From an uncultured Micrococcales bacterium (GTDB taxonomy: Bacteria > Actinomycetota > Actinomycetes > Actinomycetales > Microbacteriaceae): 12,246 nt of DNA. Each line of letters opens with the position of its first letter. Position 1 is the first letter of the stretch. The notes beneath the pieces are model-generated. The model saw only the letters and a program-made list of their open reading frames with translations, was not told where the DNA came from and did not search any database. Positions 1 to 5,153 of the stretch are shown here, piece by piece. The position numbers and the translations under genes are program-made. The DNA lies in NCBI GenBank assembly GCA_903820955.1, contig CAIJJH010000007.1:1-12246 (forward strand), written 5' to 3'.

Positions 1-1451
1 GCAACGCCGACAACCTGGTATGGGATCTTTTGCGCCGAGAGAGCGGCGACATACTTTTCGGTGCTGCCCTTCGAACGAAGCAAGAGGGCCGCGGTCGGCT
101 TTGGCTCGCCTGGCTCGGTGTGCAACTTGGCAGCAAACCACTTGGCCACGTGTTCGGCCTCTTCGCTTTGAGTTTGCAGGTACGCGATTTCGGTGTCGCC
201 GACAGGAGCGCCAGGCTTGGCGGTTAGTTTGACGGCCTTGATTCGACTGTGCGAAAGCTCCTCGAGCTGTTTCTGGTTTAGTCCTCTGGTTACGAAGACT
301 GGTTCTTGGCGGAGTTCTTCGAGCAGGTCGTTGGCCAGGTTGAGCACGCCGCTCGGGTTTCGCCAAGAGGTGGGCAGCGGAAACTGAATAACCTCTCGCT
401 CGGGAGTGCCAAAGTCTGTGATGAATTCGCGCAGGTTTGAGGCGCTAGCTCCTCGCCAGCCATAGATTGACTGGTTTGGATCGCCAACCGCGAAGACCGA
501 GTGCTGGGCGAAGAGGCCGCGGAGTAATTTGGTCTGCAGGGTGCTGGTGTCTTGGTATTCATCGAGCAGGACGTGCTTATAAAGCGAGCGCTCGCGACCG
601 GCAACCAAATCGGGCATCATTTCGACTGCTCTTGCGGCAAGCGCTACCTGGTCGCTGTAGTCGACCATGCCGCGCAGTTTCTTCTCTTCGATGAAACGAC
701 CCGCAAGGTTGGCGACCAACCCCGACTGGAAGAAGTCCTTCCAGGTGTTGAAGCGTGTGGTCGGGATCGGATTTTCTGGTGTCTGATTCTTGGCCGGCAG
801 AGAGGCGATGCGGTTGTAGGTCTCTTCTACGAAAGAGCCGATCTGCTCTGCGGTTACCCCGTTGTCGGCCATCTCGCTGGCGATCGAAAGGACCGCCTCG
901 ACGATGGTGTTCAACGATGAATCGGATTCATCGAGTCGCGCATCGACGTCGCTGCCGTATTTGAGAACCACCTCTCGAGCCAGTTGGTAGCGAGATGCAT
1001 CGGTGAGGAGGATCGAGTCTGGTTCGTAACCGAGCGCTAGGGCGTGATCGTGAAACAGCGAATTTGCGTAGGCGTTGTATGTCGAAATATTTGGAGCTGC
1101 GAATGGTTTGTCACGAAGCTCCGATGGCCAAAACTCGGTTCGCGAAAGCGTTAGCAGGCCGTTGTTGATTCGCTTGGAGAGCTCTGAGGCAGCCTTCCTC
1201 GTAAAGGTTAGGCCTAGGATTTCGCTCGGCAGCGAATAACCGTTGGCAACCAGCCAAAGCACGCGAACCGCCATGAGTTCGGTCTTGCCGCTACCGGCTC
1301 CGGCGACAACCAGGCTCGGAGCATCGGTTGGTGACTGTTCGACTGCAGCGCGCTGTTCCTCGGTGAGGCTCAGGTTCGGATTATTCGCGAGTTGTTCTTT
1401 GGACTTGACCGCTAGGAAGACCTGATCGGCGGAGAACTTGTTATTCGACAT
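1..1451 (-). CDS. adnB: ATP-dependent helicase-nuclease subunit AdnB (N-terminal 483 residues; C-terminus beyond the window)
   Basis: The reading frame is open without a stop from the ATG at 1451 to base 1. It encodes a UvrD-like SF1A motor: Q-motif region LTEEQ (29-33), Walker A AGAGSGKT (50-57), motif Ia LTFTRKAASEL (about 80-90), motif II LLDEYQDT with D297/E298, and motif III GDPNQSIYGWRGA from about 324. All motor motifs seen are intact. AdnB proteins carry a RecB-like nuclease at the C-terminus; that part lies outside the window. AdnB pairs with AdnA to unwind and resect DNA double-strand breaks, replacing RecBCD/AddAB in actinobacteria. The start overlaps the last 11 bases of adnA in another frame, which suggests translational coupling; the upstream ribosome site is weak (GGCGGTG). 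The order adnA then adnB and the sequence style around LTFTRKAASEL support AdnB over plain UvrD/PcrA. Confidence 0.9.
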   Translation of the reverse strand, partial: MSNNKFSADQVFLAVKSKEQLANNPNLSLTEEQRAAVEQSPTDAPSLVVAGAGSGKTELMAVRVLWLVANGYSLPSEILGLTFTRKAASELSKRINNGLLTLSRTEFWPSELRDKPFAAPNISTYNAYANSLFHDHALALGYEPDSILLTDASRYQLAREVVLKYGSDVDARLDESDSSLNTIVEAVLSIASEMADNGVTAEQIGSFVEETYNRIASLPAKNQTPENPIPTTRFNTWKDFFQSGLVANLAGRFIEEKKLRGMVDYSDQVALAARAVEMMPDLVAGRERSLYKHVLLDEYQDTSTLQTKLLRGLFAQHSVFAVGDPNQSIYGWRGASASNLREFITDFGTPEREVIQFPLPTSWRNPSGVLNLANDLLEELRQEPVFVTRGLNQKQLEELSHSRIKAVKLTAKPGAPVGDTEIAYLQTQSEEAEHVAKWFAAKLHTEPGEPKPTAALLLRSKGSTEKYVAALSAQKIPYQVVGV

Positions 1452-4400
1452 ATGACACCGCCGGTACTAGTTGGATTGCGCAGGCGCCGTAGCGATCGCT
1501 CGTGCAGTGGCTGCCGATATTGGCGATGAACAGCTTTTTCTCCATAGCCATCTCGGTTGCCGACTCTTGCAGGATGCCGGCGAAGTACTCGATGCCATAT
1601 TCGGCCTCTGGCGAGTTGATTGCCTCTTGGTCGAACACTCCGGAATCTTCGGAAACAAATACCAACCTGGCCCCTTCGAGTCGGTCGCCATCGCGGATGA
1701 TGTCGCCGAAAGCCTTTTGCTCGAACGCGAGCTGGTAGAGACCGAGCTGGGGGTGAACCTTAACTTCTTCTTTGGAAATTTTGCGGCCGGTCTTGAGGTC
1801 AACGATCATGACCTGACCCTCGGCATTGCGTTCGATGCGGTCGACTGTGCCCGAGACGTAGGCGTCGCCGAGTTGGAAGTTGAACTTCACCTCGGTTCCG
1901 ATTAGCTCGTATCCATCTCGCTCTTGAGCCGCAAGGTAGCCGGCCAACCTGGTCACCATCTTGCGAGCCTTACGTTTCTCTTTCTTTTCGAGCCATTCGG
2001 CCTCGAAGTCGAGGGTGTGCCATTTTGATTCGACCCCACGCCACAGTGTGGCTTCGTTGATGTTGGCGGTTTCTTCTAGAACCTTGTGGAGCAGGATTCC
2101 GAAGTTTGCCTCAAAGCTGCCCTCGCGCCCGCCGTGGTGCTTTATGAACCAGTGCAACGGGCACTTCAGGAAGTCGTCGAGCTGAGAAGGTGCAACGTAG
2201 ACCTGTTTTTCGCCGTCGAGAACTACCAGCGCTTCAACGGTTGAGAGATCGAGGATTCCGTACCACTGTTCCGGGTCGGCACCGGCAATGCCCTCGGCGG
2301 CCAACCTGGCCAGCCCATAGGCGGCCTCTAGGCGCTCGGTCTCGTTGGTGGTTTCGAGAATCGTTCGACGCAGTCGACCAACCGTGCCGCGCAACGTGTA
2401 GCGCGGTGCTCCGTAGCCCTCGGTCTCGGGAATCTGCCCGAGCACTAGCGAGACGAACTGCGATATTTGCGATTCGTCTCCGTCAACCGAGGTGACCACG
2501 AGCAAATCGGTGGCTGCACCGACGGCCTTGTTGAGAAGCCTTAGCTCCTCAGGGAGCTCACTTCTCACCAGGTCGGTGTTTTCGCTCTTCTTAGTCAAAA
2601 GCTCATCGAGTGAAACAGCGCCCAGTAGCGAGGACCGCGGCTTGAGGTTAGGCCAAACGCCTTCAATCAGCTGCGGAATCACCACGACTTTGAAGCGTCG
2701 GCCGATCAGGGCGGCCGATGTCAGCAAAAGCACTCGCTCGTTGTCGCGCGCGCCGATCGCAAGGGTGTCCTGCGGAAGATCCAGTGAAAGCTGGTCTTCG
2801 ATAAACGCGCGAATCGTGCCGTTGGGGTTGCGCTCCACGTAGCGGTTGGCCGCGGCGAACAGCGCCACCACTGCGTCCAGGTTGCGGCCCGCTTGCACGG
2901 CCACCTCGCCTACGTTCTTGGTCTGGAGTGGCCAGAAACGCATCGGCTTGGAGCCATTCCAAAAATGCCAAAGCAGGTCTTCGGCGGTTCTGCGTTCGTC
3001 GGTGACGAGGCGCTTGGCGTTCTCGAGTAGAGCGACGAACTCGGTGACGGCGGTTGCCTCTTTGCTGTCGAGAGTGGCCACTGTGCCGGGGGCGTTGAAC
3101 AGCTCCACCACGAGTTCGTCGCCGGTGCGATTCAGGCCCTCGTTGAGATCTGCCTGGCGTAGCTGGCGACGCAGGCGACGCAGTCCGAGGCTGTCGAGGT
3201 CGCAGAAAGGCGATTCGAGCAGCGACAAAGCACCTCGGTAGTCAACCGGTTCGTCGTCGAGCACGTGTTTGGCAAGGCGCAAAAGGTCGCCACTAGCGAA
3301 TTCGTCGCGAAGCGCGGACTTGCTGCCCAAAACGCTGGCCGGGACGCTCTCGCTGGCCAGAGCGGCGGCGAAGTTCTCGAGTAGCGTGCGCGATCTTGCG
3401 ACCACGGCCATCTCGCCCCATTCGATTCCGTCGTTCAGATGAAGTTCGCGCAGCCGCCTAGCCACCCAGGCAGACTCGCTGGTTGCGGTGTCAAACACCT
3501 TGCCCTCGACCTCTGCGCCAGGCACCAGGTTGGTTGCGCCGTGCACCTTGCGCTGCGGGCCGGCAAGCTCGGGCGGCATGGCCTTCGCAATGTTTGCCAT
3601 GGCAATCGAGATTGCCTCTGGGCGAACCTTGTGATCGTGCTCGAGCATGATCGTCTTGGCTCCGGCAGAACCAGCTACTTCGTCGATCAGGAGTCGCATA
3701 GATTGTGGGTCAGCCGAGCGAAACCCGAGAGTTGCGCTGTCTGGGTCGCCGAGCAAAACTAGGCCGGCGCCTTGCGAGACCAAGACCTTGAGTAGATGCT
3801 TGGCACCCGGGGTCAGCTCTTGCGCGTCATCAACGATTACCAGTTTCACGTCGGTCACGAAGGCTGGGCGAGGCTTCGACTCGAGGAGCTCGGCGGCCTT
3901 GGTCAGAAGCGTGGAAGGGTCGTGGCGGTTGTCGTTGGCCGGGGTTGCCAGATGTTCGAGATACTTTTCTAGGACGTCGGCTGCGCCCACCCAGACCTGT
4001 TGGCCGTGATCTGCGCCGGTGGCTCGCAACTCGGCCGGGGTTACCCCGTGCTCGAGGCAAACCGTGAACAGTTCGCGAAGTTCGGCACGAAAGCCGGAAA
4101 GTGAAATGACGTCTTCGTCAATGTGTGTTGGCCAGTTAGTCGAAAGTCCGGCTGCGGCCTCTTCGATCAAAAGCTGCTTCAGGATTCGATCTTGCTCAGA
4201 GCCGTTGATCAGCTCGGGTGAGCGAGTGCCGGTGGCTAACGCGTCTTCGCGCAAAACCGAAAAGGCAAAGCTGGCAAGTGTGCGAGCCATGGGGCCAGCG
4301 GTTGCGCCCTGATTGGCCAGAGCAAGTTCGTCGCGCAGAAGATTCGCGGCATCGCGACTGGCGGTGAGCGCCAAAACATTGTGAGCCTGCAGGCCGTTGG

Positions 4401-4569
4401 CTAACTGGGCAAGGTAAAGCGCCTTGAGGGCAGAAGTTTTGCCCGAGCCGGGCGCACCGTAAACGACGGCCTTTGCAGAAGCCTCGAGGGAGGCGACTTG
4501 TTGCTGCGAAGCCGAAAGCGGGTGATCGGCAAATTCGAGGCCGTGGTTGCGAAAAGTGGTAGTTGCCAT
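1441..4569 (-). CDS. adnA: ATP-dependent helicase-nuclease subunit AdnA
   Basis: This 1042-residue protein is close to the size I recall for mycobacterial AdnA. The N-terminal part is an SF1A motor: QQQ (22-24), Walker A GAPGSGKT (38-45), motif II IVDDAQE (245-251, Asp248 where UvrD has Glu) and motif III GDPDSATLGFRSAD (274-287). Motif V is weak (TSAALIGRRF, 617-626), and motif VI reads EELRLLNKAVGAA (674-686), with Ala685 at the usual arginine. The C-terminal part is a RecB/AddB-type PD-(D/E)XK nuclease: C803 in FLKCPLHWF, H828 in ILLHKVLEE, D910 in GTVDRIE, D924 and K926 in VDLKTG, then the QLGLYQLAF helix. C803, C1022 and C1030 fit a Fe-S nuclease, but the expected middle cysteine is D1025. 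The nuclease looks active; the motor looks secondary to AdnB. The ATG at 4569 lies 8 bases after a -10 element and has no ribosome site, so the transcript may be leaderless. Confidence 0.92.
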   Translation of the reverse strand: MATTTFRNHGLEFADHPLSASQQQVASLEASAKAVVYGAPGSGKTSALKALYLAQLANGLQAHNVLALTASRDAANLLRDELALANQGATAGPMARTLASFAFSVLREDALATGTRSPELINGSEQDRILKQLLIEEAAAGLSTNWPTHIDEDVISLSGFRAELRELFTVCLEHGVTPAELRATGADHGQQVWVGAADVLEKYLEHLATPANDNRHDPSTLLTKAAELLESKPRPAFVTDVKLVIVDDAQELTPGAKHLLKVLVSQGAGLVLLGDPDSATLGFRSADPQSMRLLIDEVAGSAGAKTIMLEHDHKVRPEAISIAMANIAKAMPPELAGPQRKVHGATNLVPGAEVEGKVFDTATSESAWVARRLRELHLNDGIEWGEMAVVARSRTLLENFAAALASESVPASVLGSKSALRDEFASGDLLRLAKHVLDDEPVDYRGALSLLESPFCDLDSLGLRRLRRQLRQADLNEGLNRTGDELVVELFNAPGTVATLDSKEATAVTEFVALLENAKRLVTDERRTAEDLLWHFWNGSKPMRFWPLQTKNVGEVAVQAGRNLDAVVALFAAANRYVERNPNGTIRAFIEDQLSLDLPQDTLAIGARDNERVLLLTSAALIGRRFKVVVIPQLIEGVWPNLKPRSSLLGAVSLDELLTKKSENTDLVRSELPEELRLLNKAVGAATDLLVVTSVDGDESQISQFVSLVLGQIPETEGYGAPRYTLRGTVGRLRRTILETTNETERLEAAYGLARLAAEGIAGADPEQWYGILDLSTVEALVVLDGEKQVYVAPSQLDDFLKCPLHWFIKHHGGREGSFEANFGILLHKVLEETANINEATLWRGVESKWHTLDFEAEWLEKKEKRKARKMVTRLAGYLAAQERDGYELIGTEVKFNFQLGDAYVSGTVDRIERNAEGQVMIVDLKTGRKISKEEVKVHPQLGLYQLAFEQKAFGDIIRDGDRLEGARLVFVSEDSGVFDQEAINSPEAEYGIEYFAGILQESATEMAMEKKLFIANIGSHCTSDRYGACAIQLVPAVSYVE

Positions 4570-4577
4570 TGAAAGTG

Positions 4578-4600
4578 AGAATACAGGCGACCACCGACTT
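4578..4600 (-). promoter_or_regulatory. RecA-NDp-like (PafBC-type) DNA-damage promoter for adnAB
   Basis: Read on the minus strand, the bases are AAGTCGGTG, exactly eight bases, then TATTCT. The mycobacterial RecA-NDp consensus, as I recall it, is tTGTCRGTG-N8-TAnnnT. Seven of the nine upstream positions match, including GTC-G-GTG, and both the N8 spacing and TAnnnT match. TATTCT is also a fair -10 hexamer; transcription would start at or just before the ATG at 4569. PafBC activates such promoters after DNA damage, independently of LexA. The role is inferred from motif and gene content; binding is not shown. Confidence 0.65.
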
Positions 4601-4602
4601 TA

Positions 4603-4625
4603 TTGTCTGTTCTCTGTCGTAATCT
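4603..4625 (+). promoter_or_regulatory. RecA-NDp-like promoter for the DUF3107 gene
   Basis: The plus strand reads TTGTCTGTT, eight bases, then TAATCT. This matches the tTGTCRGTG-N8-TAnnnT consensus at seven of nine upstream positions (T replaces R and the last G), with exact spacing and TAnnnT. The predicted start near 4632 would leave a leader of about 19 bases holding the ribosome site AAAGG (4641-4645). It is two bases away from the oppositely oriented site of adnAB, so the two form one symmetric block. Confidence 0.5.
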
Positions 4626-4650: not shown

Positions 4651-4875
4651 GTGGATATCCGTATCGGCATTCAAAACAGCCCTAGAGAGCTATCGTTCGA
4701 GAGCGACCAGAGCGCGGCCGAGGTGGAGTCACTCGTGGCAAGTGCCATCGAGACCGGTTCCAAACTCCTAAAACTCAGAGACAACAAGGGTCGCCTGTTC
4801 TTGGTTCCCGTAACCTCGATCGGTTACGTGGAATGCGGTGCCGAAGAGTCACGAAGAGTGGGGTTCATCGCCTAA
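4651..4875 (+). CDS. DUF3107 family protein
   Basis: This small protein of 74 residues begins MDIRIGIQNSPRELSFES and ends ERR-type VGFIA, which is the hallmark of DUF3107, a short actinobacterial family of unknown function. The middle segment LFLVPVTSIGYVE is a beta-rich stretch also typical of the family. I chose the GTG at 4651 because AAAGG (4641-4645) lies at the right distance and homologues begin with V/M-D-x-R-I-G; an upstream in-frame start at 4603 would add 16 residues that overlap the promoter. The gene diverges from adnA and overlaps the next membrane-protein gene by one base (TAATG), so the two are probably co-translated. The mycobacterial counterpart (Rv3208A, from memory) lies in the same neighbourhood. 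No biochemical role can be given from sequence. Confidence 0.88.
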   Translation: MDIRIGIQNSPRELSFESDQSAAEVESLVASAIETGSKLLKLRDNKGRLFLVPVTSIGYVECGAEESRRVGFIA

Positions 4876-5153
4876 TGGAAGTTTTACTAATACTTGGTTA
4901 CGCCGTTCTACTCGGTTTGGTTGCTCCTTACCTAACCACTCGCGCCGGCGAATACGGCACTCTGGTTCCGCCAGCAGTGGCAGCGGTCACCGGTTCGGTA
5001 ATCTGGGTCATCTTGACCTGGGTCGGCTTCAAATACGAGGAAGCCTGGATCTGGATCATCATCATGTTGGTCATGCCAGTGGTAATGATCATTGCCTCTT
5101 CACGACTAGCAGCGGCAAGAATCCACGCCCGCGAGGCTCTAAAAAACTCCTAG
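4875..5153 (+). CDS. Small three-helix membrane protein, unknown function
   Basis: The 92-residue product has three hydrophobic segments, at about residues 1-19, 29-51 and 56-78, and ends with a basic, alanine-rich tail. There is no signal-peptidase site and no recognisable enzymatic motif. I do not recognise a named family. The ATG at 4875 shares its A with the stop codon of the DUF3107 gene (TAATG), so expression by termination-reinitiation is likely; an upstream in-frame start at 4833 would lie inside DUF3107. The stop TAG (5151-5153) overlaps the stop of the convergent ferritin-like gene. The tight coupling suggests that it works with, or at least is made with, the DUF3107 protein, and that it shares the possible damage-responsive promoter. 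Confidence 0.8.
   Translation: MEVLLILGYAVLLGLVAPYLTTRAGEYGTLVPPAVAAVTGSVIWVILTWVGFKYEEAWIWIIIMLVMPVVMIIASSRLAAARIHAREALKNS

Follow-up and report, generated by a model that had tools for sequence, protein, structure and literature searches.

Putative PafBC-type promoter of adnA and a patchy, lineage-specific RecA-NDp-like site at the divergent DUF3107 promoter in a member of the Microbacteriaceae

The gap between adnA and DUF3107 in the window (the whole stretch of 12,246 nucleotides analysed here, from an uncultured Micrococcales bacterium of the family Microbacteriaceae) appears to contain two promoters pointing apart, of which the minus one, serving adnAB, would be a true target of PafBC. 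When DNA is damaged, PafBC would enable the housekeeping RNA polymerase at the adnA promoter, and the plus promoter, with its strongly conserved -10 region, would express DUF3107 together with the adjacent 92-aa ORF. In much of the Microbacteriaceae the DUF3107 promoter looks ClgR-activated, with a box placed mostly 26-27 bp before the -10, as at clpC. The genus of the window has no box at this register, and a PafBC-type half-site seems to have arisen there in the exact register in several lineages, including that of the window, where DUF3107 would probably be weakly PafBC-responsive. We assign a probability of about 0.6 to this explanation as a whole, i.e. a PafBC-driven adnA arm combined with a shift from ClgR to PafBC at DUF3107. 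It builds on the sequences, their registers and conservation, and the presence of the pafBC and clgR genes, all of which are established, whereas binding, activation and co-induction are inferred.

The features of the gap and of its flanks are as follows.

3..1451, minus strand: adnB-like UvrD helicase, start only, cut by the window end
1441..4569, minus strand: adnA, UvrD-type helicase with PDDEXK nuclease (Pfam)
4576..4593, plus strand: position of the ClgR-type box (register 26, counted back from the -10 TA) in many members of the family; no box in the window
4578..4600, minus strand: putative RecA-NDp (PafBC-type) promoter of adnA, AAGTCGGTG-N8-TATTCT, one base off the core TGTCRG (basis: sequence and conservation)
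4603..4625, plus strand: RecA-NDp-like site of the DUF3107 promoter, TTGTCTGTT-N8-TAATCT, with TGTCTG as its core (one mismatch)
4615..4625, plus strand: conserved -10 region of DUF3107, TGTCGTAATCT, with identical letters in 27/60 genus promoters
4651..4875, plus strand: DUF3107 (PF11305, Pfam), related to PDB chains named TB9.4 and Small RNA-Binding protein (SRB)
4875..5153, plus strand: 92-aa ORF overlapping the DUF3107 stop by 1 base, without a Pfam match

A sequence-only reading had proposed that two RecA-NDp-type sites stand back to back in this gap, their upstream halves two bases apart, and the sequence read-out confirmed this layout. The minus site is spelled AAGTCGGTG-GTCGCCTG-TATTCT (4600-4578, minus strand) and the plus site TTGTCTGTT-CTCTGTCG-TAATCT (4603-4625, plus strand); N8 and TAnnnT are exact in both, and the two 9-mers are divided by positions 4601-4602 only. 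Because the -10 of adnA ends 8 bp before the ATG at 4569, the adnA transcript would be leaderless or nearly so. The distance from the end of the DUF3107 -10 to the GTG at 4651 is 25 bp.

On sequence alone, both sites are unexceptional in the 1.27-Mb assembly (202 contigs). When it was scanned with TTGTCNGTG-N8-TANNNT (position 6 free, the reversed pattern serving as control), no place was free of mismatches, 15 places had one mismatch, and 198 had at most two, compared with 131 for the control; the plus site has one mismatch to this pattern and the minus site two. The stricter core TGTCRG-N10-TAnnnT occurred exactly at 11 places (control: 5), and neither site of the window was among them. Other places in the genome thus match the motif as well as the two sites do; the minus site is raised above chance by its conservation. 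The plus site is raised only modestly, by a register-specific enrichment inside the genus.

The conservation of the adnA arm was assessed in a family set of 161 loci, from which L076 (not an actinobacterium) had been excluded and in which some genomes were present twice and many were incomplete; adnA was divergent to DUF3107 in 154 of them. Leaving out L071 and L091 (poor adnA alignment) and four duplicates gave 148 gaps, six of which come from the genus of the window itself. The adnA-direction core was found exactly in 93/148 of these gaps and with at most one mismatch in 131/148, as against 0.1 and 2.0 in dinucleotide shuffles, although the loci are related and the counts are not independent. 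A separate genus set (DUF3107 present in 60/67 genomes, adnA opposite in 44/60 loci, 42 after removal of two duplicates) gave 18/42 exact cores and 36/42 with at most one mismatch (shuffles: 0.1 and 0.8). Conservation of the adnA half as a PafBC-type site is thus far above chance in both the family and the genus. Judged by these alignments, the adnA-side site appears to be an old, widely conserved PafBC-type promoter in the Microbacteriaceae.

The regulator itself, whose presence in the genome had been named as a point to check, was also found. An adjacent pair of WYL proteins matches the two halves of the solved PafBC structure 6sj9, which identifies them as PafB and PafC. As a positive control, recA upstream regions matched the core exactly in 29/31 cases and to within one mismatch in 31/31 (30 genomes); the site upstream of recA in the window's own genome is GTGTCGGAG-N8-TAGTCT. 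About 60 bp further upstream of it (L195, G000:C58) lies what we take to be an SOS-like box. A PafC match was absent in 6/150 family genomes, some of which may be misses, as the query was distant. In gaps from genomes without a PafC match the exact core was found in 0/4 cases (two of the four being within one mismatch), as against 93/144 in the others, for only part of which PafC presence was tested. The lack of an exact core in genomes without a PafC match goes in the expected direction, but the number is small and mixed.

With a tTGTCRgtg-N8-TannnT motif, both PafB and PafC encoded, and a site conserved upstream of a DNA-repair gene, the adnA arm is very probably PafBC-driven. PafBC control of AdnAB in mycobacteria has already been published, and passages of PMC8223512 and PMC8151990 name AdnAB as a PafBC target there. 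The text of the RecA-NDp motif follows a passage of PMC5656591. The likeness to mycobacterial RecA-NDp/PafBC promoters (recA P1; AdnAB in the regulon) comprises the 9-mer, N8, TAnnnT, the PafB and PafC genes, and the occurrence of the motif at both recA and adnA. Unlike those promoters, the present one belongs to a small-genome member of the Microbacteriaceae and has adnA opposite DUF3107. A back-to-back pair of PafBC promoters was not seen in the parts of the PafBC literature covered by our searches, which were aimed at other questions than divergent pairs.

The DUF3107 arm lacks such family-wide conservation. The DUF3107-direction core was found exactly in 3/148 family gaps and with at most one mismatch in 12/148 (shuffles: 0.0 and 1.6), and in the genus it was exact, and register-specific, in 3/42. 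The earlier expectation that both half-sites would be kept in relatives thus holds for the adnA half in family and genus, but not for the DUF3107 half. A near-twin of the window (L063/L257) has TGTCGG at the plus site, which is a closer match than the TGTCTG of the window; the next sisters retain the minus site and show only TAGTCGTTG (L258) and TAGGTCTTC (L259) at the plus register.

On the other hand, the plus site is patchy yet not simply noise. When the genus promoters were aligned on the DUF3107 -10, GTC stood in the exact RecA-NDp register in 11/44 promoters facing adnA, compared with a mean of 0.4 and a maximum of 4 at other registers; it was missing from 33/44, and none of the 16 promoters without adnA opposite had it (0/16). 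The fuller TGTC[AG]G was present at this register in 3/44 promoters facing adnA versus 0.00. Outside the genus, ..GTC[AG]G occurred at the register in 6/140 promoters versus 0.52 (maximum 3), and the stricter TGTC[AG]G in 2/140, a count that two other registers equal. Four of the six looser matches outside the genus are accompanied by a box-like match close to the ClgR position, so that replacement of the ClgR box does not hold as a general rule.

In a tree built from adnA N-termini, of whose 41 inner branches only 10 are well supported, the GTC trait needs 8 changes, at least 6 of them forced by well-supported branches. The trait is hardly clustered, 46 of 500 shuffles being as clustered. One locus of the same genus, L292 (G188:C21, 427-475), carries an exact back-to-back pair, ATGTCGGTG-N8-TAGTCT and CTGTCGGTG-N8-TAATCT, 3 bp apart; a weak ClgR-like match (score 5.2) overlaps the plus site of this pair. 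A DUF3107 -10 of the same kind is also present in 16 genus loci (L260, L278 and L281 among them) whose upstream 480 bp yielded no adnA.

The strongest competitor of our explanation, towards which we lean only somewhat less than to its opposite, holds that the plus site is a chance match, that TGTCGTAATCT is an ordinary housekeeping promoter of DUF3107, and that adnA alone is a PafBC target. The scarcity of the core across the family (3/148 exact, 12/148 near) fits this view, as does the fact that most of the genus, the 16 loci lacking adnA among them, retains the -10 but no half-site; TGTCTG in the window is also off the core. However, a chance origin accords poorly with the register-specific enrichment within the genus (11/44 versus 0.4), with TGTCGG in the near-twin L063/L257, and with the perfect pair in L292. 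Weighing both sides, DUF3107 may plausibly depend on PafBC in the window, and whether this arm responds to PafBC there is close to an even call, falling slightly short of it.

At the DUF3107 promoter a different regulator comes into consideration for most of the family. A block, TTCnGCCnnnAGnGAACG, lies upstream of many family DUF3107 promoters, 26-27 bp before the -10 TA, and resembles the ClgR consensus, given as WNNWMGCYNNNRGCGWWS in a passage of PMC2905415 and also as CGC-N5-GCG in one of PMC3613350. At clpC, a known ClgR target, 29/29 promoters have the ClgR box 26 or 27 bp upstream of the -10 TA. A box matrix was trained on 26 clpC boxes, with the window's own genus excluded and L256 dropped (no ClpC start), and was applied with a threshold score of at least 6 to 146 DUF3107 promoters, L096 and L194 being left out for their short gaps. 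Forward boxes at 25-28 were found in 70/146 promoters (other forward four-wide windows: mean 0.2, maximum 1), and a further 25 had reverse boxes at 31-33 or 42-44, which gives 95/146 in either orientation, at registers picked after viewing the same loci.

Having an MGCYNNNRGCG-type box at the clpC register (70/146 forward), the family DUF3107 promoters are quite likely to be under ClgR control in the Microbacteriaceae, and DUF3107 would gain a likely place in the ClgR regulon. The box resembles those of the ClgR-activated clpC and clpP1P2 promoters (WNNWMGCYNNNRGCGWWS) and shares the 26-27 bp register of clpC; it differs from them in that the third position of its RGCG half is often A or T, and in that it is absent at the register from the genus of the window. 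The window scores -8.5 at register 26, i.e. it has no ClgR box at the clpC register. In the genus the box was found at the DUF3107 register in 0 loci, and a score of at least 3 anywhere within 170 bp was reached in 6/60, two of these scoring at least 6. We infer that the box was lost in the genus, and not that it was never present. In the window, the half-site on the DUF3107 side may plausibly have been added in this lineage only, within a genus without the family's ClgR-type box.

A relative of ClgR was matched in 149/150 family genomes, four of the matches being weak (G022, G039, G066 and G128; E 1e-14 to 1e-4) and possibly other proteins; with matches this general, the presence or absence of ClgR across genomes was dropped as evidence. 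The ClgR of the window's genome scores 93.6 bits against the NCBIfam ClgR model, under the curated cut-off of 170, and its naming rests on this match, on its place between a cinA-like gene (by reading) and recA, and on the clpC box, which in this genome scores 20.1.

The suggestion of class-wide ClgR boxes before DUF3107 was downgraded. Among the best 30 of 180 matching genomes, a score of 6 was reached within 200 bp upstream in 19/30 and in the downstream control in 10/30, and a score of 12 in 8 versus 5. Scores of at least 14, the only level at which the two diverged clearly, were found upstream of DUF3107 in other families of the class in 5/30 (L327, L328, L341, L342 and L353), compared with 0/30 in the downstream control. 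An ECF-sigma promoter for DUF3107 was likewise rejected, as the GAAC-to-CGTA distance of about 25 bp is off the usual ECF spacing.

The two kinds of site come close to each other in the gap. In a set of 91 loci having both the box and the adnA site, which admits two extra reverse registers (27 and 28) compared with the 146-promoter count, the two overlap in 20 and stand apart in 71. In 19/91 the register is identical and the ClgR box encloses the whole PafBC 9-mer. Where the sites overlap, half of the box letters are shared with the PafBC 9-mer, so that the score is partly borrowed, and the independent part consists of the GAAC half together with the box's register relative to the -10 of DUF3107. 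One may tentatively see in the gap an ancient two-regulator node at which, since one site can lie within the other, PafBC (DNA damage) and ClgR (protein damage) would have to compete or hand over, the genus having lost the ClgR arm and DUF3107 having been captured repeatedly by PafBC. If so, the node would be a switch with the repair of DNA breaks on one side and a small protein, putatively RNA-binding, on the other.

The broader claim of the sequence-only reading, a fully shared and co-selected divergent PafBC control point of both operons, appears unlikely. The symmetric arrangement in the window and in L292 would suit such a control point, as would the finding that GTC at the DUF3107 register is confined, in the genus, to promoters facing adnA (0/16 otherwise). 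However, the pair is absent from the next sisters and not kept in the family, where ClgR-type boxes stand at the DUF3107 promoter in 95/146 loci. What survives of a shared PafBC site for DUF3107 is a genus minority with the half-site in the exact register, only facing adnA, and the pair in L292. That the RecA-NDp-like sites here are read by ClgR instead of PafBC, in line with an earlier claim on mycobacterial recA (a 2011 report that ClgR recognises the RecA-NDp promoter itself, cited in a passage of PMC5656591) and as the overlap of box and adnA site in 20/91 loci might suggest, is very improbable, given that recA regions have RecA-NDp in 31/31 and box matches in only 5, scattered, that the clpC box keeps a fixed register, that 71/91 loci keep the sites separate, and that the exact core is found in 0/4 gaps of genomes without a PafC match, though two are near.

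Returning to the reading with a PafBC-driven adnA arm and a ClgR-to-PafBC shift at DUF3107, passages of the 2017 PafBC paper (PMC5656591) leave open how the RecA-independent DNA-damage promoter is shared by ClgR and PafBC. In the Microbacteriaceae the two motifs are separate (one at recA, the other at clpC), stand at fixed registers on opposite genes and overlap in 20/91 loci, which makes the question of promoter sharing directly testable. Both recA and uvrA have an SOS box as well as RecA-NDp upstream (PMC8223512), and the present gap resembles them in that a single upstream region would serve two stress regulators. It differs from them in that the two presumed regulators would serve opposite genes, with overlapping sites in 20/91 loci. 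In literature searches covering mostly papers available without subscription, ClgR and DUF3107 were not found together among the matches listed, nor were PafBC and Microbacteriaceae found together.

As for the product of the plus promoter, the nearest solved structures of DUF3107 are, by entry name, TB9.4, Small RNA-Binding protein (SRB; PDB 9nip) and DUF3107 domain-containing protein. Pfam annotates it as a protein of unknown function, and a passage of PMC4255298 lists DUF3107 (SCO5169) as a possible ATP-binding protein.

RecA-NDp-type sites were also observed elsewhere, upstream of a LysM gene divergent from a lexA-like gene (L007), an xseA-like gene (L011), a DUF6504-like gene beside a SRAP-like one (L002) and a gyrB-like gene (L315), all names being read from the sequence; the site of the xseA-like gene also falls within longer open frames. 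A RecA-NDp-like match at L010 1501-1523 falls between the clpC start and its ClgR box and uses the clpC -10; it may be due to chance.
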